This document shows, one piece after another, positions 7,202 through 25,085 of a DNA stretch of 31,631 nt; positions within the stretch are counted from its first letter, which is position 1, and every line of letters begins with the position of its first letter. Below the pieces are notes generated by a model. It searched no databases. It had not been told where the DNA came from and saw nothing but the letters and a program-made list of their open reading frames with translations. Location: positions 1 through 31,631 of the IMG/VR virus record IMGVR_UViG_3300009155_000159; one strand, written 5' to 3'. Made by a program: the position numbers and the translations under genes. The stretch comes from a virus.

Positions 7202-7377
7202 TGTATGTACAAATGCAGGGCATAAATTTAGCCCCAAAGGTAAAAGAACTTGAAAAACGCATTGAAATGTTGGAAAATGTGGTAAAAGAGTTACAATCCT
7301 CACCAAGACCGAAACTTGGTCGCCCTCCAAAGGATGCACATGGAAACGAACGACTTGAAGTCGATACTGCAAGCTGA
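7201..7377 (+). CDS. Small coiled-coil protein between TerL and portal
   Basis: 58 residues from ATG 7201, which overlaps the TerL stop (TAATG); an in-frame ATG at 7189 lies inside terL. Residues about 12-38 form a coiled coil (VKELEKRIEMLENVVKELQS), followed by a basic Pro-rich RPKLGRPPKD tail. It overlaps the portal start by 38 nt. I recall similar small coiled-coil ORFs at this place in podoviruses; role unknown. Confidence 0.6.
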   Translation: MYVQMQGINLAPKVKELEKRIEMLENVVKELQSSPRPKLGRPPKDAHGNERLEVDTAS

Positions 7378-9472
7378 GATTGATGATGCTATTGGCTTTA
7401 TTGAAAGCGAAACAGTAGAGCAACGCAAACAGGCTTTGGAGGCGTATCTTAGACAACCTTACGGCAATGAAGTTGAAGGTAAGTCTCAAATCGTTACAGG
7501 TGAAGTAGCAGAAGCCATTGATGGTGCTTTGCCTTCACTTGTTCGCATTTTCACAGGCTCAGAAAACATCGTAGTCTTTGAGCCACAAGGCCCAAGGGAT
7601 GAAGCCTCTGCCAAACAAGCCACAGATTACTGTAATTGGGTGTTTAGCCGTGATAACGAAGGTGTAGCAATCCTACATGATTGGTTTAAAGATGCTCTTT
7701 TACAGAAGAACGGCATCATTAAAGCATATTGGGAAGATAAAGAAGACATTACTAAAGAGCGTTACTTTGACTTGTCTGATGACGAGTTAGCAATGCTAAT
7801 GAGTGATGAGAGCATGGAAATTGTCGAGCAAGATACGACAGAGTTCCCAATATTTGATCCAATGGGACAGCCAGTTGTTGATCCTATGGGTGCGCCAGTT
7901 ATGGGTGCTACGCATAATGTTGTGGTGCAGCAAAAGAAAAAGTCTGGCAAAGTAACGATTGAGAACGTGCCTCCAGAGGAGTTCTTGATTAGCAAGAAGG
8001 CTAGAACTATTGCTGATTCACCTTTTGTAGCCCACAGGCAGATGCTGACTCGTAGCACTTTGATGGCTATGGGGTTTAACAAGAAGCAGGTAGAAGGCTT
8101 ACAGATTGGTGATGCTCTAGCATACACACCAGAGCGTGTGGCTCGTTACTCAGCAGGTGAGCAACCATACACAATCCAGACAGATGATCCTTCAATGCAA
8201 GAGATTGAAGTCTTTGAGTGCTATGTCAAAACTGATATAGATGGCAAAGGCATTGCTTCATTGGTTCAAGTGTTCTACGCCTCAAACGAGATTCTTGAGG
8301 ATGCCAAGGGTAAGGAAATGGTTGAAGAAGTGGACTATGTTCCTTTCCACTCAATCTGTCCTATTCCTATACCACATAAGTTCTTTGGTAATTCGTTGGC
8401 AGATAGGACAACAGACATTCAGTTGATTAAGACGACTATCACTCGTCAAATGCTGGATAACCTATATCTGACAAACAATGCTCGTGTTGTTGCTGTTGAA
8501 GGACAAGTAAATCTTGACGACTTGCTTACATCTACTGCTGGTGGTGTTATTCGTGCTAAGTCTCCAAACGCTGTTCAGCAATTGGTAGTTCAGAACGTAG
8601 CTTCTCAGGCTTTCCCAATGCTTCAGTATCTGGATACAGTTCAGTCTAAGCGTACTGGTGTTAGCGATGCTTCACAGGGTTTAGACCCATCTATCTTGCA
8701 AAATGTAACGGCAGCAGCAGTAGCTTCAATGCAACAAGCTGGCGCAGGTAAGATTGAGTTAATGGCTCGTATCTTTGCTGAGACAGGCGTTAAGTCGTTG
8801 TTCAAGGGTATCCTTCACTTGCTTTGTAAGTACCAAGACAAGCCTCGTTTGGTGCGTATGCGTGGTGAATTCGTAGAGTTTGATCCTAGAACATGGGCTA
8901 ACCAATATGATGTTTCTATCAACGTAGGTCTAGGTGCTGGTAACCGACAAGAGCAGATGGCTATGTTGTCTATGGTTCTTGCTAAACAAGAGCAGTTGAT
9001 TAGTCAGTATGGCCCTGCTAACCCTTACGTTTCACCTGCTCAGTATCGTGGCACTTTGGGACGCATGGTAGAGATTGCAGGTTTTAAGGACTCTGCTGAG
9101 TTCTATAAAGCAATTACGCCAGAACAAGATCAGGCATTGAGTAATCCTCCTCCACAAGAGCAACAGATGCCGCCTGAGATACAGGCATTGATGGCTAAAA
9201 CTCAAGCTGAGATACAAGCTAACCAAGCTAAAGCACAAGCTGACTTGGAGATGCAACAGCAACAGATGCAGATTGATATGCAGATGGCACAACAGAAGGC
9301 TGCTCTTGAAATGCAATTGATGCGTGAGAAAGAACTGGCTAAGTTGCAATTAGAGCGTGAGAAACAACAGGCTTACTTTGCATTGAAACAACAAGAGTTT
9401 GAAGCTGAAGCGCAGTTAAAAGCCATGAAGATAGGTGCTGGAATTACATCTAACGTAGAAATCAGAGGTTAA
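7340..9472 (+). CDS. Portal protein, P22-like
   Basis: 710 residues, close to P22 portal (about 725). Start ATG 7340 has AAAGGA 5 nt upstream; a longer frame from TTG 7316 lacks support. The N-terminal and middle regions look like a phage portal: AYLRQPYGNEVEGKSQIVTG, then DALPSLVRIF-type segments and VPFHSICPIPIPHKFFGNSL. The last 120 residues are a Gln-rich coiled coil (EIQANQAKAQADLEMQQQQM and on), which may be the barrel-like or internal extension. It forms the dodecameric DNA channel at the head vertex. The family is firm from context and sequence. Confidence 0.9.
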   Translation: METNDLKSILQAEIDDAIGFIESETVEQRKQALEAYLRQPYGNEVEGKSQIVTGEVAEAIDGALPSLVRIFTGSENIVVFEPQGPRDEASAKQATDYCNWVFSRDNEGVAILHDWFKDALLQKNGIIKAYWEDKEDITKERYFDLSDDELAMLMSDESMEIVEQDTTEFPIFDPMGQPVVDPMGAPVMGATHNVVVQQKKKSGKVTIENVPPEEFLISKKARTIADSPFVAHRQMLTRSTLMAMGFNKKQVEGLQIGDALAYTPERVARYSAGEQPYTIQTDDPSMQEIEVFECYVKTDIDGKGIASLVQVFYASNEILEDAKGKEMVEEVDYVPFHSICPIPIPHKFFGNSLADRTTDIQLIKTTITRQMLDNLYLTNNARVVAVEGQVNLDDLLTSTAGGVIRAKSPNAVQQLVVQNVASQAFPMLQYLDTVQSKRTGVSDASQGLDPSILQNVTAAAVASMQQAGAGKIELMARIFAETGVKSLFKGILHLLCKYQDKPRLVRMRGEFVEFDPRTWANQYDVSINVGLGAGNRQEQMAMLSMVLAKQEQLISQYGPANPYVSPAQYRGTLGRMVEIAGFKDSAEFYKAITPEQDQALSNPPPQEQQMPPEIQALMAKTQAEIQANQAKAQADLEMQQQQMQIDMQMAQQKAALEMQLMREKELAKLQLEREKQQAYFALKQQEFEAEAQLKAMKIGAGITSNVEIRG

Positions 9473-9474
9473 TC

Positions 9475-11835
9475 ATGGCAGTTTCTAAAGCTGAAATTGT
9501 TAACTTTCTTCAAGCTAATCCTAATATGAGTGATGCAGACATTGCGTCTGCTATGGCTCAGTATGGTGTAACTCCTGCACAAATGGCTGCTGCTACAGGA
9601 TTAAGTGAAGGCCAAGTTATTTCTCGTGTTGCGGCTACAGTACCACAAGGTTCTTCAATTACGTTAGGTGACACTCGTATTGTTCCTAATTATCAAGTAA
9701 TTGGTTCTGGTGAAGACCAACAAATTGGTGCGCTTGAGAATATCTATGTAGACAAAACTACAGGCGATCTTAACTACAAAGCACCAGTAGGATCAACATA
9801 TCAACAACTAAGTGCTGATGGTACGTTTGAAAGAACAGGCGTTATTCAAAAAGATCAGTCATTTTTGGGTGGTTTAGCAGGGGTTTTAAATGACCCAATT
9901 ATTCAAGCTGCTTTATTAGCCAGTGGTGTTGGTGGTGCTATTGGTGGTAGTTTAGGTCTTACAGGCTCAACAGCACAAGCAGTTGGTACAGGTTTATTCA
10001 AAGGTGGAAGCGCACTTGCTGGTGGTGCTGACCTTGAAGACGCTTTAAAAGCTGGGCTTTTAAGTGGTGGTTTAGTTTATGGTGGTGCTGCATTAAACAA
10101 TGCTATTAAGTATCAAGATGTTCCTGTTGACTTCAATACGATGACAACAGATGAAATCAATGATGCACTTGACATAAATTATAGAAATGATCTTTATCGT
10201 GCTGGTTTAACTAATCCGCAGATTAAAGGTTATTTAGCAAATCCTGCAAGTATTTATGATGTAACTTCAGAACTAACTTCTACTGATTTAGCAACGAATC
10301 CAGTAATAACAGATGATACAGTTAATGTTTCTGCAACAACTACACCATCTTTAAATAACTTATTAAATACTGTTGCTAATCCAACAGTAACTGTTACTTC
10401 ACAAAAAACTCCAGAACAAGTAGATCAGTCTGTACTTGACTTAATTAACAGTCAACTTGCAACTAATGTAACTACACCTACTACATTAGCTAATGTTGAA
10501 GTTACAGGTAATAAAGGGGTGTCTTCTGTAGATACTACGGAAATTGATAGATTGTTAGGTTTGCTTCCAACTTTAAATACAGTAGCACCAGTAACTACTA
10601 ATTTAACACCAACAGTAAACGTAGTTGGTCAAAAACCAATAGAAACTACAATTATAGATAAGCCAATTATTGAGCCTACTTTGCCAGTGCGTCCTACTAT
10701 TGGAAATAACGAAGTAGTTATTACGGGCGATAGACCTACAAATGCAACTGATTTAATTTCAGCTTTAGTTCAACCTGTTACTAGAACACCAAGTATAAAT
10801 GTTGTAGCTCAAAAACCAGTGGAAACAACAGTAATAGATAAACCTATTATTGAGCCTGTAGTAGAACCTGTAGTAAAACCTACTATTGGAAATAATGAAG
10901 TAGTCATTACAGGTGAAAGACCAATAAATATAACTGATTTATTAGCTTCTTTAGTTCAACCAACTTCTATAACACCAACAGTAAATGTTGTAGGTCAGAA
11001 ACCTATTGAAACTACAATTATAGATAAGCCAATTATTGAGCCTTTAGTAGAGCCTGTAGTTAAGCCAACAATTACAGAACAGGTTATTACAGGTGATAGA
11101 CCTTTAAATATAACTGATCTAGTTGCTTCTTTAGTTCAACCTGTTATTAAAACATCAACAGTAAATGTTATTGATAAAAAACCAGTAGAATCAATTATTG
11201 TAGATAAACCAATTATTGAGCCAGTTGTTAAACCAATTGTTAAGCCAGTTATTCCAGAGCAAGTAATTACAGGTGATAGAACTATAAGCCTAGATAATTT
11301 ACTTTCTACTTTAGTTGCACCAACTACCTTAACTCCTACAGTAAAAGTTGTTGATAAAAAACCAGTAGAGCAAACTATTGTAGATAAACCTATCATTGAG
11401 CCAAAACCGCCAGTTGAGCCAGACCCTTTAAAAGTAATACAAGATACAGCAAAAATTGTTAACTTGCTTAATACTGATACTGGTACAAATCAAACTGTAA
11501 CTACTACTGATACTGGTTTCCCAATTGTTCCAATACCAGCAGATTGGACAAATCCTTCTGCTACTGGTGTTGCACCATTTACACCATTGCCTCCTATTGA
11601 TTTTGGTACTCGTGAGTTACTTAGGGGTACTCAATGGGAGAAATTCCTAAGTCCTACCTATGGTAAAGTACCAGAGCCAGTTAAGTTTACTCAGCCATCT
11701 AACATGAGTTATAGTGATTTAATGAGTATCTTGGGTGGTAACAAAATGCCAGCAAGATCAAATTTAAGCATTAACGACATTATTTCTGGAATACAAAACC
11801 AATATGGACAAGCATCTAGTAGCAAAGTGGGCTAG
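9475..11835 (+). CDS. Large repeat protein, candidate virion/ejection protein
   Basis: 786 residues. The N-terminus (residues 3-45) is a small helical module (SKAEIVNFLQANPNMSDADI, YGVTPAQMAAATGLSEG). Residues about 130-205 are Gly/Ala-rich and hydrophobic (IQAALLASGVGGAIGGSLGL, GGLVYGGAAL), as in membrane-active ejection proteins. Residues 378-646 consist of tandem 60-62-residue repeats, each with V-N-V-V-G-Q-K-P, then DKPIIEP, then V-V-I-T-G-D-R-P and an LxSLVQP helix. The C-terminus is unrepeated and Pro-rich. It lies between portal and scaffold, so a head-internal or neck role is likely. Exact function unknown. Confidence 0.65.
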   Translation: MAVSKAEIVNFLQANPNMSDADIASAMAQYGVTPAQMAAATGLSEGQVISRVAATVPQGSSITLGDTRIVPNYQVIGSGEDQQIGALENIYVDKTTGDLNYKAPVGSTYQQLSADGTFERTGVIQKDQSFLGGLAGVLNDPIIQAALLASGVGGAIGGSLGLTGSTAQAVGTGLFKGGSALAGGADLEDALKAGLLSGGLVYGGAALNNAIKYQDVPVDFNTMTTDEINDALDINYRNDLYRAGLTNPQIKGYLANPASIYDVTSELTSTDLATNPVITDDTVNVSATTTPSLNNLLNTVANPTVTVTSQKTPEQVDQSVLDLINSQLATNVTTPTTLANVEVTGNKGVSSVDTTEIDRLLGLLPTLNTVAPVTTNLTPTVNVVGQKPIETTIIDKPIIEPTLPVRPTIGNNEVVITGDRPTNATDLISALVQPVTRTPSINVVAQKPVETTVIDKPIIEPVVEPVVKPTIGNNEVVITGERPINITDLLASLVQPTSITPTVNVVGQKPIETTIIDKPIIEPLVEPVVKPTITEQVITGDRPLNITDLVASLVQPVIKTSTVNVIDKKPVESIIVDKPIIEPVVKPIVKPVIPEQVITGDRTISLDNLLSTLVAPTTLTPTVKVVDKKPVEQTIVDKPIIEPKPPVEPDPLKVIQDTAKIVNLLNTDTGTNQTVTTTDTGFPIVPIPADWTNPSATGVAPFTPLPPIDFGTRELLRGTQWEKFLSPTYGKVPEPVKFTQPSNMSYSDLMSILGGNKMPARSNLSINDIISGIQNQYGQASSSKVG
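10606..11412 (+). repeat. Tandem 180-186-bp coding repeats
   Basis: Repeat units begin at 10606, 10786, 10972, 11152 and 11332 (periods 180, 186, 180, 180), the fifth being partial. Each encodes a half-repeat with V-x-V-x-G-Q-K-P and DKPIIEP and a half-repeat with VVITGDRP and LxSLVQP. A degenerate earlier copy can be traced at about 10345-10605. Confidence 0.85.
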
Positions 11836-13028: not shown

Positions 13029-13973
13029 ATGGCTACCTATCAAACATATACCGCAATCGGTATGCGTGAAGACCTCTCTGACGTTATCTATAACATCAGC
13101 CCTACAGACACACCTTTCATGTCTACCATTGGTAAGACAAAGGCAACTGCTGTTTATCACGAGTGGCAGACTGACTCATTGGCTGCTGCTGGTTTGAACG
13201 TAACAGTTGAGGGTGCAACAGCATCTGACGCTACTATGTCTCCAACTACTCGTGTTGGCAATCGTTGCCAGATTTCACAGAAGACAATCAAGATTTCAAA
13301 CACCTTGAACGCTGTTGATAAAGCTGGTCGTAAGTCTGAAAAGGCTTATCAGTTGGCTAAAGCATCTGCTGAAATCAAGCGTGACATGGAATTGACATTG
13401 CTCAGCAACCAAGTTGCTACCAATGGTAACTCCTCTACTGCTCGTGCTTTGGGTGGTTTGCAAGCATGGTTGGCTACTAACTACTCTGGTGGTACTTCTG
13501 GTGTTGCTGGCGCATCTGGCACTACTGCTCGTACAAATGGTACAAACCGCACTTTCACAGAAGCAATCTTGCAAACTGTTGTTAAGAGCGTTTATACCGC
13601 TGGTGGCAATCCTAAAATCTTGATGGTTACTCCTGCTCACAAGCAAGTAGTCTCTAGCTTTGCTGGTATTGCTGCTCAGCGTTACATGGCCCCTACTAAT
13701 GCCCCTACGACTATCATCGGGGCGGCAGACGTATACCTGTCAGATTTCGGCACTCTGAGCGTTGTTCCCTCACGTTTTATGAACAGCACTAACTCGGCTG
13801 ATGATGTTGCATATTTGCTTGACCCAGAAATGGCAGCAGTTGCTTATCTGCGTCCCTTCCAGACCATTGAGTTGGCTGTTACTGGTGACAACGAGTCTAC
13901 ACAACTATTGGCTGAGTTCACATTGGAAGTTAAGAACGAAGCTGCACACGGCATCATTGCTGACTTAACCTAA
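13029..13973 (+). CDS. Major capsid protein, DUF5309/SU10 type
   Basis: 314 residues. The start MATYQTYTAIGMREDLSDVI, then ISPTDTPFMSTIGKTKA and HEWQTDSLAAAG, matches the SU10-like DUF5309 capsid family. Continuing marks are ISQKTIKISNTLNAVDKAGR, GGNPKILMVTPAHKQVV and a C-terminal LLDPEMAAVAYLRPFQTIEL. HK97 fold is expected. SD TTGGAGT lies before the ATG. Followed at once by a strong terminator, so its mRNA is probably abundant. Confidence 0.92.
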   Translation: MATYQTYTAIGMREDLSDVIYNISPTDTPFMSTIGKTKATAVYHEWQTDSLAAAGLNVTVEGATASDATMSPTTRVGNRCQISQKTIKISNTLNAVDKAGRKSEKAYQLAKASAEIKRDMELTLLSNQVATNGNSSTARALGGLQAWLATNYSGGTSGVAGASGTTARTNGTNRTFTEAILQTVVKSVYTAGGNPKILMVTPAHKQVVSSFAGIAAQRYMAPTNAPTTIIGAADVYLSDFGTLSVVPSRFMNSTNSADDVAYLLDPEMAAVAYLRPFQTIELAVTGDNESTQLLAEFTLEVKNEAAHGIIADLT

Positions 13974-15376: not shown

Positions 15377-16207
15377 ATGGCTGATTTACTGCCTCCGTGG
15401 ACGATTGATTCGCTAGACAATTTAAAGTCTAGCATTGATGACTTAACACTCACACTTGATAGTTCACTTTATACAACATCTGTAACCCTATGGGATGCCT
15501 ATGGGTCTGTAACTGCGTCTGCAGATGTTACAGCAAGTGGCTCTAGGGTTCAGTTTGGTGTTGGAGTAGTAAATTGTTCAGCAGACGTTACGGCAAGTGC
15601 AATAACAGTTCAATATGCAAGCGCAAGTGTTACAGCAACTGCTAGTACAGTTTGTGATGGTAATAGAGTCCAGTTTGCATCTGGTGCAATTGATGGAACT
15701 TCTACAGTAACTGCTAATGCAACTAAAGTTCAGTTAGCAACTGGAAGTGTTACTGCTAATGCTGATGTAACTGCAATAGGAACTCGTGTTCAGTTTGCTA
15801 GTGGTGCAATTACTGGAAATGCAGATGTTACGGCTCTTGGTGGAATTGTAGCAAATGCTGCTGGTTCAATAACTGCTAATGCTACTGTTACTGCTGATGG
15901 AATTAGAGTTCAACAAGCTATTGCTCTAATTGATTGTAATGCAGACGTAACTGCTAATGGTGGTTTAGTTGTTGGCGCAGTTGCCAACATTGAAGCTAAT
16001 GCTGATGTTTTTGCTAGTGCTTCTGCAATTTATGCAGGTTTAGCATCTGTATCAGGTCTAGCTACAATAACTGCTAAAGGCGTTATCCTTGGTGATAACT
16101 GGACACCAGTTTCAGTAGATGCAAATACATGGACTCCAGTTTCAGCTAATGACAATATATGGACTGAACAGTCTCAAGGAAGTAATACATGGCTACGACA
16201 AGGATAA
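15377..16207 (+). CDS. Beta-solenoid repeat protein, candidate tail appendage
   Basis: 276 residues. The N-terminus (residues 11-32) has SLDNLKSSIDDLTLTLDSSL. Residues 40-239 are ten tandem repeats of about 20 residues with the pattern A-x-G-x-I/V-x-x-x-A-D-V-T-A-x-G-x-R-V-Q-F, which should form a parallel beta-solenoid. The C-terminus is a different repeat: four units of about 10 residues each starting at Trp (WTPVS, WTPVS, WTEQS, WLRQG). It overlaps the nozzle-like gene by 19 nt. Probably an elongated virion appendage. Function unknown. Confidence 0.65.
   Translation: MADLLPPWTIDSLDNLKSSIDDLTLTLDSSLYTTSVTLWDAYGSVTASADVTASGSRVQFGVGVVNCSADVTASAITVQYASASVTATASTVCDGNRVQFASGAIDGTSTVTANATKVQLATGSVTANADVTAIGTRVQFASGAITGNADVTALGGIVANAAGSITANATVTADGIRVQQAIALIDCNADVTANGGLVVGAVANIEANADVFASASAIYAGLASVSGLATITAKGVILGDNWTPVSVDANTWTPVSANDNIWTEQSQGSNTWLRQG
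15494..16090 (+). repeat. Ten tandem 60-bp coding repeats
   Basis: The DNA repeats with a period of about 60 bp, with recurring GTTCAGTTTGC-like and GCAGATGTTAC-like blocks. It encodes the 20-residue beta-solenoid rungs described under the gene. The copies are diverged, so they are old repeats. Confidence 0.8.
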
Positions 16208-18006: not shown

Positions 18007-18900
18007 ATGGCTACCACTTCGTCAATTGACCCAACAATTCAACCATATTTAAATTATGGTTTAACTGAAGCGCAGAGGCTTTACCAAGCTGGTGGCCCTC
18101 AGTATTATGGTGGCCCTACGTTTGTAAGCCCATCGACTACAACTCAAACTGGTTTACAGGCTTTAGAGGCTCGTGCTTCTCAAGGTAATCCTTTGTTGCA
18201 GTCTGCTCAGAATCAACTGCAAAGTACAGTTTCTGGCAATTACTTGAGTGGCAATCCATTCTTTCAAGGTGCTTTCAAACCTGCTGCCCAAGCTGCTGAG
18301 ACTCAGTTTAAAACAACTTTAGGTGACATTGGCTCTAAAGCAAGTCTAGCAGGTCGTTATGGTTCTGGTGCTATGGGTGCATTACAAGATCGTGCTGTTG
18401 GTGCGTTTGGTCAACAATTGGCTAATACTGCTGGCACTTTGGCTTATCAGAACTATGCTGATGAAAGAGCAAGACAGCAAGCCGCTACGATGGCTGCACC
18501 TGCAATGTCTAATGCTGATTACCAAGACATTCAGAATTTGTTGCAAGCTGGTCAGATGCGTGAAGGCTACACAGGCCAACAACAGCAAGCAGATTTGACT
18601 AAGTTCAATTTCTTGCAAAACCAACCACAACAGAACTTACAAAATTATTTGTCATTAGTTTATGGAAGCCCATTAGGTCGTGTTGGACAAACAACTGGTG
18701 CTTCTGAGCCATCTACATTGCAAAACATTTTAGGTGCTGCTGCTACTGCTGGTGGTTTATACAAAAATCTAGGTGGTCAACAAGGCATTAGTAACTTATG
18801 GAATAGTGCTTCTAATTGGTTGAGTGGTGGCTCAACACCTGCATCAATGGGGACTATTGACACAAATCAATATTCTCTTGGTTCTAACTGGTGGGATTAA
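18007..18900 (+). CDS. Ejection/internal virion protein 1
   Basis: 297 residues. Starts IDPTIQPYLNYGLTEAQRLY, Gly/Gln-rich, with AGRYGSGAMGALQDRAVG and a helical Gln-rich centre, then ILGAAATAGGLYKNLGG, an amphipathic Gly-rich segment, and a Trp-containing end (SNWLSGGS, NWWD). This composition and place (first of three) resembles the P22 gp7/gp20/gp16 set or T7-type internal proteins that are ejected into the host. Homology is not claimed. Confidence 0.65.
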   Translation: MATTSSIDPTIQPYLNYGLTEAQRLYQAGGPQYYGGPTFVSPSTTTQTGLQALEARASQGNPLLQSAQNQLQSTVSGNYLSGNPFFQGAFKPAAQAAETQFKTTLGDIGSKASLAGRYGSGAMGALQDRAVGAFGQQLANTAGTLAYQNYADERARQQAATMAAPAMSNADYQDIQNLLQAGQMREGYTGQQQQADLTKFNFLQNQPQQNLQNYLSLVYGSPLGRVGQTTGASEPSTLQNILGAAATAGGLYKNLGGQQGISNLWNSASNWLSGGSTPASMGTIDTNQYSLGSNWWD

Positions 18901-18903
18901 ATC

Positions 18904-20157
18904 ATGGCTGGACTATTAGATATTTTTGGTACTAGTGGTGCAGACACAATGGGTCTGCTAGGTATGTCACAAGCTGACATTGCTCGTAATCGTGATGATG
19001 CACAAGCCCAAGCACTCTACGCATTAGCTGGCAGACTATTCCAAGGAGGGAATACTGGTCAGTCTATTGCTCAAGGTTTGCAAGCTGGTCAGCAAGCCTA
19101 TAAAGGCGGTATGCAAGGTGCTTTGCAAGAGCAATTACAAAATGCTCAACTTCAAGAGATGATTCGTAAGCGTCAACAAGAGCAACAAGCATTGATGCGT
19201 CAGCAAGGTATTGAGAGCGAAATTGCAAAAGCATATCGTCCACAAACTTTTGCTGAGACACCATTGACAAACTTGATGGGTCAAGAGATTGCAGGGCCAA
19301 ACCAACCACAAGCTGCTGGATTGGGATTGCAAGATTTAGCCCCTAAACTAATGACAACACCAGAAGGACGTAAATCTCTTTCTGAATTGATTGCTGCTCA
19401 AAAAGCAATGAGTGGTGAAACTACTACATTGGCAGAAGGCGCAAGTCTTATCCGTGTTAATCCTATTACTGGGAAAGTTGAGAATGTTGCTCAAGGCGCA
19501 CCAAAGCGTGAGCCAGTACCTAGTGCAATTGCTGAATACAAATTTGCACAAGACCAAGGTTATAAAGGTTCTTTCCAAGACTTTGAGTTAGCTAAACGTG
19601 CTGCTGGCGCACCTAAAGTTGCAGTAGATTTAAAAGACCCAACAGCAGTAGCAAAAGCACAATCTGATGTTATTAAAGATTGGCGTGGCGTTGTTAAAGA
19701 TGTTGGCGCAATGGAAGTTGCTGATAGATATAAGGCTGCTAAAGCTGCTGTAGAAGAGGCAAATGCTGGTAATAAAACTGCTGATGGCGCATTGATTTAT
19801 GCCATTGGTAAGATTTATGATCCATCTGGTGCTGTTCAAGAAGGCGACAAGAAAACAATTCTTGGTAATCGTTCTATTCCTCAGTCAATTCAAGCCTATG
19901 CTCAACGAGCATTAAATGGTCAAGAACTGTTGCCACAAGAACGTGCAGGATTACTTGCTGTTGCGGGTAAATTAGTTGAATCTAAGGCTCGTAATCTTGA
20001 GGCTCAAAAAGCACCTTATACAAGCATTTCTCAGCAATTAGGTGGTAATGGTTCATTGTTATTAAATCCTCTTGCAGATGCGTTAACTGCGCCAGTACAA
20101 GCAATGCCATCTATGGCTGATATTGCTGCTGAAATTGCTCGTAGAAAGAAACCATAA
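18904..20157 (+). CDS. Ejection/internal virion protein 2
   Basis: 417 residues. Begins MAGLLDIFGTSGADTMGLLG with ALAGRLFQGGNTGQSIAQGL, then a Gln-rich coiled coil (GALQEQLQNAQLQEMIRKRQ) and a helical C-terminal half (KSDV-type IKDWRGVVKDVGAMEVADRY, YAQRALNGQELLPQERAGLL). The MxGLLDxFG start and Gln-rich helix are typical of phage ejection proteins. It begins 4 nt after the previous stop and its end overlaps the next start by one base (TAATGG). Confidence 0.65.
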   Translation: MAGLLDIFGTSGADTMGLLGMSQADIARNRDDAQAQALYALAGRLFQGGNTGQSIAQGLQAGQQAYKGGMQGALQEQLQNAQLQEMIRKRQQEQQALMRQQGIESEIAKAYRPQTFAETPLTNLMGQEIAGPNQPQAAGLGLQDLAPKLMTTPEGRKSLSELIAAQKAMSGETTTLAEGASLIRVNPITGKVENVAQGAPKREPVPSAIAEYKFAQDQGYKGSFQDFELAKRAAGAPKVAVDLKDPTAVAKAQSDVIKDWRGVVKDVGAMEVADRYKAAKAAVEEANAGNKTADGALIYAIGKIYDPSGAVQEGDKKTILGNRSIPQSIQAYAQRALNGQELLPQERAGLLAVAGKLVESKARNLEAQKAPYTSISQQLGGNGSLLLNPLADALTAPVQAMPSMADIAAEIARRKKP

Positions 20158-22097
20158 TGGACTTAACCAAACTATCAGATGATGACTTGATGGCATTGCA
20201 GTCAGGCGACTTGTCTAAAGTCTCTGATGCAGGTTTGGCTGTTCTTGGTGGAATAAAGGTAGCAGAAACACCAGCATCCGCTAAAAAGCTAACAAGAGAA
20301 GAAGCTATTAAGGAAATTACTAGCTATCCTCGTCCAGAGCAAATGCAAATTGGTAGTGCTAAAGACCTTGGAAGACAAATAGGTCTAACAGGTAGAGCAG
20401 CATTAACTGGTGCTTTGTCATTACCTACAATTGGTGCTGATGCGCTTACAGGATTGATTAACATCTTAGCAGGTAGGCAAGTAATGCAACCTACTAGCCA
20501 AGCATTGCAAAACCTAATGACGCAAGCTGGTGTTCCTACTGCACAGACTCCACAAGAAAGAATTGTTCAAGACGTAACAAGTGCAGGATTTGGTGTAGCT
20601 GCCCCTGCTTCTTTGGGTAAATATTTACCCGCATCAGCACAAGAATTCTTTACTAAGAGTTTAGGAACACAAGGTGCTGCGGCTACAGGTGGTGCATTAG
20701 CATCAGGTGTTGCTCGTGAGAGTGATGTTGGCCCACTTGGTCAAGCATTAGGTGCATTAGCAGGTGCTACAACAGCAGGTGGTGCAGTTGGTTCTGCCCC
20801 TGTTCTTGCTCGTACAACTAGAGAGATTGTGCGCCCATTTACTGAGGCAGGACGTGAAGTTATTACAGGCAATGTATTGCGTAACTTGGCATCTGATGCT
20901 GAACAAGCAATAAAGTCTGCTTCAACTTATGTTCCTAAGATTGGTGGATATACACCTACTACGGCACAAGCGACTCGTGATATTGGATTGATTAACGCTG
21001 AGACTGCAATCAAAGGTTTAGATGTAACTGGCGGGCGTTTTGCCACTAGAGCATTAGAAACAAACCAAGCACAAATGGCTATTTTGAATCGTCTTGCTAA
21101 AGATGATGATGCACTAACAGCGGCTATAAAAAAACGTGATGAAGTATCTGACCCCATAAGAGAAAAAGCATTTGCTAACTCTACTGTTACACCAGAGACA
21201 TTTCAATCTGGCATTGTTTTAACAGTTAACAAAACCATTGACGATATTCTTGCTTCACCAGTTGGTAAGCGTCAAACTGTTATCTCTGTAATGAAAGACG
21301 CAAAAGACGATATTGCTCGTGCTACAACACCTGCTGAACTTTATGAAATTCGTAAAGATTTAAGGATTGCTGCACAAGGTTTGTTGGACAAGTCTGATAG
21401 AGGTGGGCCAACTGCGGGTGCTTACAAGGCGGCAAAAGAGCCACTTAGTCAAGTTATTCGTGCAGTAGATGATGCTATTGAAGCGGGTGCTACTGGCTAC
21501 AAAGATTACTTGAGTAAGTACGCTGCTTCTAGTCGTGGGATTGAGCGTCTTGAAGCTACCCAAGAGTTTAAAGGTAAGGTTCTTTCAACTACACCAGACC
21601 CATCAAGAATCAACGATTATTTAATCTCACAACCTAAGTTTTTAAATGCTATTCGTGCTGCTGAGAAAGAAACTAATCTTTCTACTACGCAACTTGCGGT
21701 GTTAAAGCGTGTAGCTGAAGACTTAGATAGTGGTGTTTTGGCTCGTGCTACCAAGCCAATGGGTTCAGATACATTTAAAAACATGAGTACCGCTAATGTA
21801 ATTGGTGGAATGATTGGTAAGCAAATGTTTGGCGATGTTCCTCTTGCTCTGCAAAAGGCATCTGCACCAATGAACTGGCTTTATAACGGCACAGATGACG
21901 CTATCCGTGAATTATTAGTTAACGCAATGCTTGACCCTAAGTTGGCTGCTACATTGATGAAGAAGGCTTCTGTAATGACAGTAGAGCCATTAAGCAAAGA
22001 GTTACAACGTAAAGCACTTCAGTTAGGATATGGGTCTACATTTGGTTTAACTGAAAAGCCTTACCGAGTTGATTTAACTGGCATGGCTAACCCCTAA
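20157..22097 (+). CDS. Ejection/internal virion protein 3
   Basis: 646 residues. The N-terminus is a helical motif LTKLSDDDLMALQSGDLSKV with SDAGLAVLGG, then a Gly/Ala-rich hydrophobic stretch (residues about 80-220: LTGRAALTGALSLPTIGADA, GALASGV, LAGATTAGGAVGSA) that could insert in membranes. The long helical rest has DAKDDIARATTPAELYEIRK and VIRAVDDAIEAGA. The layout fits large ejected proteins that help DNA cross the envelope. No lytic transglycosylase motif seen. Confidence 0.65.
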   Translation: MDLTKLSDDDLMALQSGDLSKVSDAGLAVLGGIKVAETPASAKKLTREEAIKEITSYPRPEQMQIGSAKDLGRQIGLTGRAALTGALSLPTIGADALTGLINILAGRQVMQPTSQALQNLMTQAGVPTAQTPQERIVQDVTSAGFGVAAPASLGKYLPASAQEFFTKSLGTQGAAATGGALASGVARESDVGPLGQALGALAGATTAGGAVGSAPVLARTTREIVRPFTEAGREVITGNVLRNLASDAEQAIKSASTYVPKIGGYTPTTAQATRDIGLINAETAIKGLDVTGGRFATRALETNQAQMAILNRLAKDDDALTAAIKKRDEVSDPIREKAFANSTVTPETFQSGIVLTVNKTIDDILASPVGKRQTVISVMKDAKDDIARATTPAELYEIRKDLRIAAQGLLDKSDRGGPTAGAYKAAKEPLSQVIRAVDDAIEAGATGYKDYLSKYAASSRGIERLEATQEFKGKVLSTTPDPSRINDYLISQPKFLNAIRAAEKETNLSTTQLAVLKRVAEDLDSGVLARATKPMGSDTFKNMSTANVIGGMIGKQMFGDVPLALQKASAPMNWLYNGTDDAIRELLVNAMLDPKLAATLMKKASVMTVEPLSKELQRKALQLGYGSTFGLTEKPYRVDLTGMANP

Positions 22098-22106
22098 GAG
22101 GACATT

Positions 22107-23126
22107 ATGGCAAAGACAAAAATTAGCGAGTGGAGTTCGACTCCAGCAAGTAATACAGACATAGATAGTATAAATATTGCAGAGGGCTGTGCGCCATCTG
22201 GAATTAACGATGCTATCCGTGAGTTAATGTCACAGGTTAAAGACTTATACTCTGGAACTACTGGTGACACAATTTCTGTTGCTGGTGGTGGTACTGGAGT
22301 AGGTACTTTGACAGGTATTGTCAAGGGTAATGGGACTTCAGCATTTACTGCTGTAACTGCACCTAGTGGGGCAATTGTTGGTACTACTGATACACAGACG
22401 CTAACCAATAAGACTCTGACTTTCCCTGCAATTGACAATCCTCAACTTGGTTATACAACAACTGCTACAGCAGCAGGGACTACAACTCTTACAGTAACTA
22501 GCAATCACCAACAGCTTTTTACTGGAACAACAACTCAAACGATTGTTTTACCTGTAACTAGCACATTGGCTTTAGGTGTAAGTTATTCAATTGAGAATAA
22601 CTCAACTGGATTACTAACTGTTCAATCTAGTGGTGCAAATACAATCACAACAATCCCTGCTGGTGTAACAACTCTCTTTACTTGTATTTTAACAAGTGGA
22701 ACAACTGCTGCATCATGGGACTATGACCAAGTTGGTTTTGGAACAATTACTGGTACAGGTGCTAATGTCTTAGGTACTTCACCAAGCATTACACTTCCAA
22801 CAGTTACTGATTACATTGAAACTCCGTATACCGCAAACTCAAGTACAGCCATTACGCTTGCTTTGACAAACGGAACTGTTCAGATCATTACGCTGACAGG
22901 AAATGCGACCATTACCATGCCAACGGCAACATCGGGTAAATCGTTTATTTTGTTGTTGAAGCAAGATGCAACGGGTTCACGCACAGTTACTTGGACAACA
23001 GTAAAGTGGCCTGCGGGTACTGCACCAACCATTACCAGTACAGCATCTAAGCAAGATATTTTTAGTTTCTTTGCTGATGGCACAAACTGGTATGGCGTGA
23101 CTGTATCTCAGAACTACACACCATAA
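22107..23126 (+). CDS. Tail fibre/appendage protein
   Basis: 339 residues. The N-terminus KISEWSSTPASNTDIDSINI, then EGCAPSGINDAIRELMSQVK, is the familiar virion-attachment domain of many podovirus fibres. It is followed by GGTGVGTLTGIVKGNG and LTNKTLTFPAIDNP, short fibre motifs, and Thr-rich beta repeats to the end (ITLPTVTDYIETPYTANSST, GSRTVTWTTVKWPAG). SD AGAGGA before ATG. Probably forms or anchors the receptor-binding fibre. Confidence 0.85.
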   Translation: MAKTKISEWSSTPASNTDIDSINIAEGCAPSGINDAIRELMSQVKDLYSGTTGDTISVAGGGTGVGTLTGIVKGNGTSAFTAVTAPSGAIVGTTDTQTLTNKTLTFPAIDNPQLGYTTTATAAGTTTLTVTSNHQQLFTGTTTQTIVLPVTSTLALGVSYSIENNSTGLLTVQSSGANTITTIPAGVTTLFTCILTSGTTAASWDYDQVGFGTITGTGANVLGTSPSITLPTVTDYIETPYTANSSTAITLALTNGTVQIITLTGNATITMPTATSGKSFILLLKQDATGSRTVTWTTVKWPAGTAPTITSTASKQDIFSFFADGTNWYGVTVSQNYTP

Positions 23127-23135
23127 GGACTAACA

Positions 23136-25085
23136 ATGTTTGCAGCAAGTAAAACAGCGGGCGTCAGTGGTGCAGTAAATTACATTGAAGATGTGTTTTC
23201 AACGTGGCTATATACAGGCAATGGCACAGGTCAAACCATTACCAATGGTATTGATTTGTCTACTAAAGGTGGATTAGTTTGGCAAAAAGGTCGGGTTACA
23301 CAAACATTTACATCTAATCATAATCTTTCAGATACAGCGCGTGGTGTTTCTAAAATTCTTAGAACAAACAGCACTGTTGCACAACAAACAACCGATTCTG
23401 TTACTGCTTTTAATAGCAATGGTTTTACTATTGGTCTTGACGATACTGTAAATGAAAATGCAAAAACATATGTTTCATGGACATTCCGCAAGCAACCAAA
23501 GTTTTTTGATGTTGTGACTTATACAGGCACTGGAGTTGCTAGACAAATTTCACATTCATTAAATTCAGTGCCAGGATGTATTATTGTTAAGCGCACAGAT
23601 GCTGCCGCTAACTGGCAAGTTTGGCATACATCTGTTGCGGCTGGGGGCTTTGGTGCAATGAATTTAAATACAACTGCCGCTGCTCCATCTGGTAACTATG
23701 TATTTCGTAATGCGTCTTTTCAAACATCTACTGAATTTGGTGTTGACACTGATTCAACAGTAAACGCCTCTGGTGGAACTTATGTTGCATATTTATTTGC
23801 ATCTTCAAGTTCAGGAGGCTTTGGCCTAACTGGTACAGACAATGTGATTTCGTGTGGTTCTTACACAGGCAATGGTTCTGCAACTGGCCCTGTTGTGACA
23901 CTTGGATATGAACCACAATGGTTGATGATAAAAAAGACTAGTAACACTGGGAATTGGCAAATTCTTGATAATATGCGAGGTATGCCAGTTGGTTCTGCTG
24001 ATGGAACACTTCAAGCAAATTTATCCAATGCGGAATCTTCTGTTGAATATGCTAGTTCAACTGCCACAGGCTTTCAAATTACTTCAACAAATACTGAAGT
24101 TAATACAAATGCCGCAACCTACATCTACATAGCCATTCGTATAGGCCCAATGAAAGTGCCTACTTCGGGTACTAGTGTGTTTGGCTTATCTGCTAGATCA
24201 GGTACAGGTGCAAATGCTACTGTGACAGGTGGTCAAACTGATGATGCTGTATTGGTTAAGAATCGTGGATCGGCAGTAGATTCTTTATTTTCTTCACGGC
24301 TTACAGGCACAGGCTATCTTGTAACGTCAACCACAGCGGCAGAAGTAGCAGCAGGGACAACCATACTTCAAGCAAATCCTTGGGATGTAATGGATGGTGT
24401 CAAAGTTGGTACAACATCAACTATTACAAATGATAGTTCAAGCACATTTGTAAATTATTTGTTCAAACGTGCGTCTAATTTTTTTGATGTTGTTTGTTAT
24501 ACAGGGACTGGAAGTGCTACGACACAAACGCATAATTTAGGTGTAGTTCCTGAGTTGATGCTTTTCAAGCAAAGAAGTAGCGCAAACAATTGGCTTGTTT
24601 ATAACAGTACAAGTGGGCCAACAAAGTACATGAATCTGAATACAACATCAGCTGACATTACTGGCGCACAACCATTTAATAATACAGCACCAACATCTAC
24701 TGTATTTACAGTTAATACATCAGGTGGAATTAACGCTTCTGGGCAAACCTATGTCGCCTACTTATTTGCAACCCTTGCAGGCGTTTCCAAAGTAGGCTCA
24801 TACACAGGTAATGGAACAACACAAACCATTGATTGTGGTTTAACGGCAGGGGCTAGGTTCGTGCTTATTAAACGTACTGACTCAACGGGTGATTGGTATG
24901 TTTACGATACCGCCCGTGGCATGACTACATTGACAGACCCTTACTGGCTAACAGACAGTTCAGCGGCTGAAGTTGCAACACTTGGTTCTGTCACAACAGT
25001 ATCTACAGGCTTTGCAGTTAATTCAACTATTTTGGCGGCTATTAACGTAAACGCTGGCACATATATCTTCTTGGCTATCGCATAA
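23136..25085 (+). CDS. Receptor-binding tail protein with DUF7483-like repeats
   Basis: 649 residues made of about six related beta domains of around 100 residues. The recurring marks are Y-T-G-N-G, then GLxxxPxxxxVKRTD, NWxVYxT and a closing TYVAYLFA or TYIYIAIR strand (e.g. FFDVVCYTGTGS, VSKVGSYTGNGT). I recall this as DUF7483, seen in tail proteins of marine and freshwater phages. It follows the fibre gene directly, so it is probably the distal receptor-binding part. Confidence 0.8.
   Translation: MFAASKTAGVSGAVNYIEDVFSTWLYTGNGTGQTITNGIDLSTKGGLVWQKGRVTQTFTSNHNLSDTARGVSKILRTNSTVAQQTTDSVTAFNSNGFTIGLDDTVNENAKTYVSWTFRKQPKFFDVVTYTGTGVARQISHSLNSVPGCIIVKRTDAAANWQVWHTSVAAGGFGAMNLNTTAAAPSGNYVFRNASFQTSTEFGVDTDSTVNASGGTYVAYLFASSSSGGFGLTGTDNVISCGSYTGNGSATGPVVTLGYEPQWLMIKKTSNTGNWQILDNMRGMPVGSADGTLQANLSNAESSVEYASSTATGFQITSTNTEVNTNAATYIYIAIRIGPMKVPTSGTSVFGLSARSGTGANATVTGGQTDDAVLVKNRGSAVDSLFSSRLTGTGYLVTSTTAAEVAAGTTILQANPWDVMDGVKVGTTSTITNDSSSTFVNYLFKRASNFFDVVCYTGTGSATTQTHNLGVVPELMLFKQRSSANNWLVYNSTSGPTKYMNLNTTSADITGAQPFNNTAPTSTVFTVNTSGGINASGQTYVAYLFATLAGVSKVGSYTGNGTTQTIDCGLTAGARFVLIKRTDSTGDWYVYDTARGMTTLTDPYWLTDSSAAEVATLGSVTTVSTGFAVNSTILAAINVNAGTYIFLAIA

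Follow-up and report, generated by a model that had tools for sequence, protein, structure and literature searches.

The window, by which we mean the whole 31.6-kb stretch of DNA analysed here, is a virus record that we assign to a freshwater podophage of the LUZ24/SU10-portal type, with the SU10-type portal, major capsid protein (MCP) and adaptor all found on the contig (Pfam PF23899, PF17236 and PF24175) along with a Pfam match to GP4 gp80. Its block of head genes includes a gene for a 786-residue protein, hereafter X. The features of this block and of X are as follows.

7334 to 9472, plus strand: portal gene (begun at a TTG at 7316 in the open reading frame list); Pfam SU10_portal, 718 bits; median identity among relatives 92.6%
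9475 to 11835, plus strand: gene for X, an open reading frame of 786 aa with an ATG start; its family spans at least 197 IMG/VR contigs
9475 to 9645, plus strand: N-terminal four-helix domain of X, HTH/UBA-like in the AlphaFold model, residues 1–57 (pLDDT 81–95)
9646 to 9849, plus strand: predicted beta-sheet domain, residues 58–125 (AlphaFold)
9865 to 10119, plus strand: Gly-rich segment, predicted helical, residues 131–215 (AlphaFold and hydropathy)
10312 to 10521, plus strand: three single TonB-box-like motifs, DDTVNVSATTTP (residue 280), NPTVTVTSQKTP (residue 302) and LANVEVTGNKGV (residue 338)
10606 to 11469, plus strand: tandem array of four units of 60–62 residues and a half unit, residues 378–665
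11515 to 11832, plus strand: conserved C-terminal tail of about 105 aa, residues 681–786, likely a docking segment
11804 to 12043, plus strand: 79-aa gene overlapping the 3' end of X, positional counterpart of LUZ24 gp64; 86% identity
12096 to 13010, plus strand: scaffold gene (phrog_3927, E=1.4e-53)
13029 to 13973, plus strand: MCP gene (Pfam SU10_MCP, 334 bits)

Two nucleotides separate the portal stop codon at 9472 from the start of X, which overlaps the 79-aa gene by 32 nt, and X occupies the same position in relatives. The order terminase–portal–small gene–scaffold–MCP is shared with LUZ24-like podophages and with the Methylophilales phage Venkman, although in LUZ24 and Venkman, unlike the X-bearing contig, nothing lies between the portal and the small gene. 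The slot is likewise empty in phiM5, a Rhizobium phage and some Manatee Spring phages. X is thus an optional, fast-changing gene. Three other loci carry apparently unrelated long Gly-rich or repeat proteins between portal and scaffold (L128:7185-8756, L132:6350-7870 and L046:22001-23089), and in other lineages this gap is apparently a recurrent insertion slot. Further downstream, the contig has a separate ejection-protein-like block (18007–22097) and dedicated tail-fibre genes (22107–25085). The window also encodes, at 15377–16204, a 276-aa protein with repeats of about 21 residues (VTAxGxRVQFASG) that probably belongs to the tail or a fibre; its counterpart at the same place in MW202462 is named 'serine-rich adhesin'.

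We searched for relatives of X among known families and found no characterised match by Pfam, PHROGs, PDB sequence, Foldseek or VIA, the VIA list being dominated by matches to residues 3–128 with other parts of the protein barely covered. The sole strong structural match was an uncharacterised protein of an uncultured phage. PHROG 'portal' and 'head fiber' matches in single relatives involved only short helical or low-complexity stretches and were set aside. These searches agree with a sequence-only reading of this DNA, which had described a modular repeat protein within the structural block and knew no family with its full layout; that reading set X between portal and scaffold, and here the intervening 79-aa gene has to be added.

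An AlphaFold model of X, built on a 32-sequence alignment, was confident for residues 1–125 (four helices, then a beta sheet), helical in the Gly-rich part and disordered from 260 to 685. The N-terminus scored below the Pfam cutoff for HTH_AsnC (18.9 bits vs 27), so we do not assign it to the AsnC-type HTH proteins; for the beta-sheet domain no PDB entry matched clearly (best Z 4.4), and no PDB fold stands out for X. The Gly-rich segment had been called membrane-like: it is indeed present, at residues ~131–215, but with a peak Kyte-Doolittle value of 1.54 and a helical prediction its membrane-like character is borderline. Modelled alone from a 52-sequence alignment, the C-terminal tail gave short helices and no autonomous fold (pTM 0.22), and yet it carries residues that are invariant in all members (F-G, L-x-G-T-Q, E and D-x-I-S-G-I-Q). 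A tail that is conserved while predicted not to fold by itself would fit a docking segment.

Next, we considered the repeat array. Tandem Repeats Finder reported a period of 180 at 10605–11402 (score 631–651), with no stronger array in the window. Units start at residues 378, 438, 500, 560 and 620 and have lengths of 60, 62, 60 and 60, the fifth being truncated at 46; both halves of each unit share a V-x-[VI]-[VT]-G/D-x-K/R-P core, so the 60–62-residue unit with two related halves recognised in the sequence-only reading is confirmed. The array is predicted to be disordered (AlphaFold, pLDDT 27–54). The heptad DKPIIEP is identical in all five copies and is more invariant than the TonB-like core discussed below. 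Full units compared pairwise were 0.68–0.79 identical in DNA with dS of 0.56–0.69, which indicates that the array did not expand very recently in the window genome; recent expansion, proposed earlier from DNA identity, was thus overstated for this genome. Units have been gained outright elsewhere: relatives L034 and L035 differ by insertions of 18 and 22 aa and are otherwise identical. This gain, and the variation in repeat type and number among relatives, some of which have coiled coils or short linkers instead, would be expected if the repeats were a neutral low-complexity expansion without function. We consider that very improbable, because dN between full units (0.16–0.38) is below dS and because one motif recurs in linkers that otherwise cannot be aligned.

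To place X in its family, we collected relatives from IMG/VR, obtaining 40 when the query was the whole protein and at least 197 contigs when it was the C-terminal tail; 81 distinct complete members of 281–1061 aa were extracted (the shortest, at 281 aa, is possibly a truncated gene call). By sequence, X belongs to an undescribed and uncharacterised family whose layout is constant: a swapped N-terminal domain, a Gly-rich helical segment, a disordered linker and the invariant tail. The linkers are interchangeable, some combining V-x-V-T-x-x-x-P strands with short amphipathic helices and others being Pro-rich spacers or coiled coils, and so are the N-termini, which may be HTH-like, an SGNH hydrolase, DUF4214 or a coiled coil. 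Beyond what had been noticed earlier, then, the repeats are just one of several linkers in a large family, and the conserved part of X is its tail, not the repeats. Swapping is seen directly in L054 and L057, which are near-identical save for an SGNH-bearing N-terminus of ~277 aa. Across up to 114 loci, neighbouring genes had median identities of 92% (TerL), 92.6% (portal), 86% (small gene), 88% (scaffold) and 84% (MCP); coverage-weighted identity of X was 18%, with a median of 68% in the tail and 11% in the repeat region. No host or prophage copy of the tail was found in 84,980 species genomes, in which there were five MCP relatives, two of them in Burkholderiales.

Other parts of these genomes are exchanged as well. 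The ejection-block protein at 20157–22094 had 82% identity in 2 of 12 long relatives, ~40% across the N-terminal third in 2 of 12 and no match in 8 of 12, and is thus also swapped. We saw no link between the type of X and the type of this protein: L071 and L097 share a ~82% identical version while their X proteins differ. The TerL proteins of L071, L078 and L042 are just 35–40% identical while their portals are 69–92% identical, pointing to terminase exchange within the group.

Hypervariability of this kind is typical of receptor-binding proteins. X could be a fibre or adhesin that faces outward from the portal vertex or the capsid, with the tail docking, the repeats acting as spacers and the N-terminus binding or trimming surface glycans. 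SGNH hydrolase matches among 35 members (12 of them, with DUF4214 in 2), the SGNH virion protein of the related phage phiM5, polysaccharide-deacetylating tail fibres known from the literature (PMC9569702) and a Variovorax prophage in which portal and scaffold flank a repeat-bearing protein of 507 aa all speak for it. Like phiM5 gp14 and the deacetylating fibres, then, some X relatives carry an SGNH domain; unlike them, X of the window has no SGNH/GDSL domain by Pfam, and both the gene and the attachment end are different. In most SGNH copies that we read in X relatives, GAS replaces GDS and GGVD replaces GGND, again unlike those virion proteins. In L015, L024–L026 and others, which show these replacements, the Ser and the D..H are kept, and the L005 module keeps GDS and GGND; judged from these residues, activity of the GAS/GGVD modules may be altered. 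The polarity of X is opposite to that of classical tail fibres, which pair a conserved N-terminal attachment domain with a variable C-terminus: in X the C-terminus is conserved and the N-terminus variable. Tail-fibre genes are in any case already present at 22107–25085, and one would not usually expect a Gly-rich segment in an adhesin. A fibre would also leave the match of motif order to TonB boxes, described below, unexplained, other than as convergence of a short extended strand. We regard this explanation as unlikely.

An assembly factor or internal cargo, bridging portal and scaffold or organising DNA, seems to us quite improbable. The position of the gene between portal and scaffold, either of which the tail may bind, and the HTH-like N-terminal fold in the window would suit such a role. 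However, LUZ24 and Venkman assemble without the gene, hydrolase modules and extreme variability are unexpected of an assembly factor, and a linker that needs only length and flexibility predicts no ordered motif.

The linkers do contain such a motif, P-[TNEA]-V-x-[VI]-T-[AGTS]-x-[RK]-P, and in many cases an amphipathic-helix-like stretch comes next. The TonB box is a short sequence that couples bacterial outer-membrane pumps to an energy source. The likeness of the linker motif to it, which is new relative to the sequence-only reading, was noticed first and tested afterwards. A PROSITE-style TonB pattern gave almost no matches, and profiles were therefore built from receptor sequences instead. 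Whichever way the test was run, the motif resembled the TonB boxes found in TonB-dependent receptors of Burkholderiales. In the forward direction, a profile of 70 phage motifs was run against 663 proteins of two Burkholderiales genomes, which are distant prophage carriers rather than established hosts. Receptors held 6 of the top 7 ranks and were matched at their TonB boxes. The AUC was 0.90, and 0 of 300 column-shuffled profiles reached either this value or the top-20 count; for proteins of at least 500 aa the AUC was 0.84, reached by 1 of 300. Regions around receptors had been sampled deliberately, so receptors are over-represented among the 663 proteins, which leaves the AUC comparison with shuffled profiles unaffected.

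For the reverse test, we scanned 58 non-redundant linkers with a profile made from 19 real TonB boxes, and 46 scored above 10 bits (mean 17.8 and maximum 27 for local shuffles; none of 1000 column-permuted profiles equalled 46). Smaller linker sets gave modest (n=15) and better (n=23) support, and we rely on n=58. Above 12 bits, the receptor profile had 83 matches in 58,988 aa of X and 2 in 162,943 aa of the other proteins from the same contigs; in composition-matched windows the counts were 65/13,148 for X and 1/13,980 for other proteins, and bacterial non-receptor proteins gave 10 receptor-profile matches in 222,561 aa. Because of family kinship the linkers are not independent samples, a problem that is eased in part by permuting columns and by using other proteins as a control. 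The linkers of the X family thus conform to the TonB-box consensus as a receptor-derived profile describes it.

By the same profile, the repeats of X in the window are only moderately TonB-box-like. DDTVNVSATTTP, NPTVTVTSQKTP and LANVEVTGNKGV scored 9.2, 13.5 and 13.3 bits, the best matches lying at residues 302 and 338, ahead of the array, and most array cores reached only 5–10 bits. NNEVVITGDRPT is a further linker peptide. Of 82 complete members, 12 had no motif above 8 bits; where the linker is a coiled coil, the motif is mostly missing.

Known users of TonB differ from X in layout. Like TonB-dependent receptors and bacteriocins (colicins B/Ia/M, pyocin S2), X carries a P-x-V-x-V-T-[AG]-x-[RK] strand in a disordered stretch, a likeness drawn from sequence profiles, with TonB binding putative. 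Unlike them, it has up to about ten internal copies and no plug, barrel or toxin domain: receptors have a single N-terminal box followed by plug and beta-barrel, whereas the motifs of X lie within the predicted disordered tether (residues 280–630), and the window contig gave no Plug match. In bacteriocins, one N-terminal TonB box in a flexible segment suffices, and the Ton motor pulls them in (PMC12927319); strand beta-3 of TonB pairs with the box (PMC7014051). Among the open-licence papers searched, none describes a TonB box in a protein of a tailed phage, and the one phage paper among the first matches concerns the receptor FhuA's own box. Filamentous phages use TolA, which is related to TonB.

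We propose that X is a tail-docked, tethered accessory protein of the virion that acts at the envelope, a reading to which we give an even chance, its presence in the virion being suggested by gene position. The invariant tail would dock on a conserved component of the head or portal, and the long disordered tether, of variable length, would carry the Gly-rich helices and the swappable N-terminal domain (HTH-like in the window, SGNH hydrolase or DUF4214 in relatives), which would be delivered to and act at the host envelope during entry. Tight gene spacing, conserved neighbours, a variable X, the disordered tether and the unfolded tail count in favour of this docked tether; the separate ejection-like block already on the contig counts against it. 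Podophage ejection or internal proteins (P22 gp7/gp16/gp20, T7 gp14-16) are similar in their place in the structural block, their Gly-rich helical segment and their likely status as virion cargo. Unlike these, X has no match to ejection-protein families in PHROGs or Pfam, and it has a putative C-terminal docking tail and swapped heads.

Once X is periplasmic, its V-x-V-T-G-x-R-P strands could pair by strand addition with the C-terminal domain of the host's TonB, and the PMF-driven Ton complex might then pull on X or be occupied by it, as with TonB-dependent bacteriocins. On the resemblance to TonB boxes, this engagement is the role that we favour for the strands, though we hold it to be less likely than not. 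It is harder to reconcile with the internal position of the motifs, the box of receptors and bacteriocins being single and close to the N-terminus (PMC12927319), with the motif-less members, and with DKPIIEP, rather than the TonB-like core, being the most invariant part of the window units. The full proposal, that a tether with up to about ten TonB-box mimics serves on entry as a multivalent virion hook for TonB-ExbBD, is doubtful.

Little is known about the way in which podophages get their DNA and proteins through the host envelope, or about whether energy from the host is used for this. Repeated TonB-box-like strands in a phage protein make questions of TonB binding and TonB dependence directly testable. 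If the proposal is true, the PMF would assist in drawing phage components across the envelope, or competitors would find TonB blocked. The X family is in itself a case of extreme diversification locked in an otherwise conserved block of head genes, and its constant C-terminal tail would allow the swapped modules to be found and studied.
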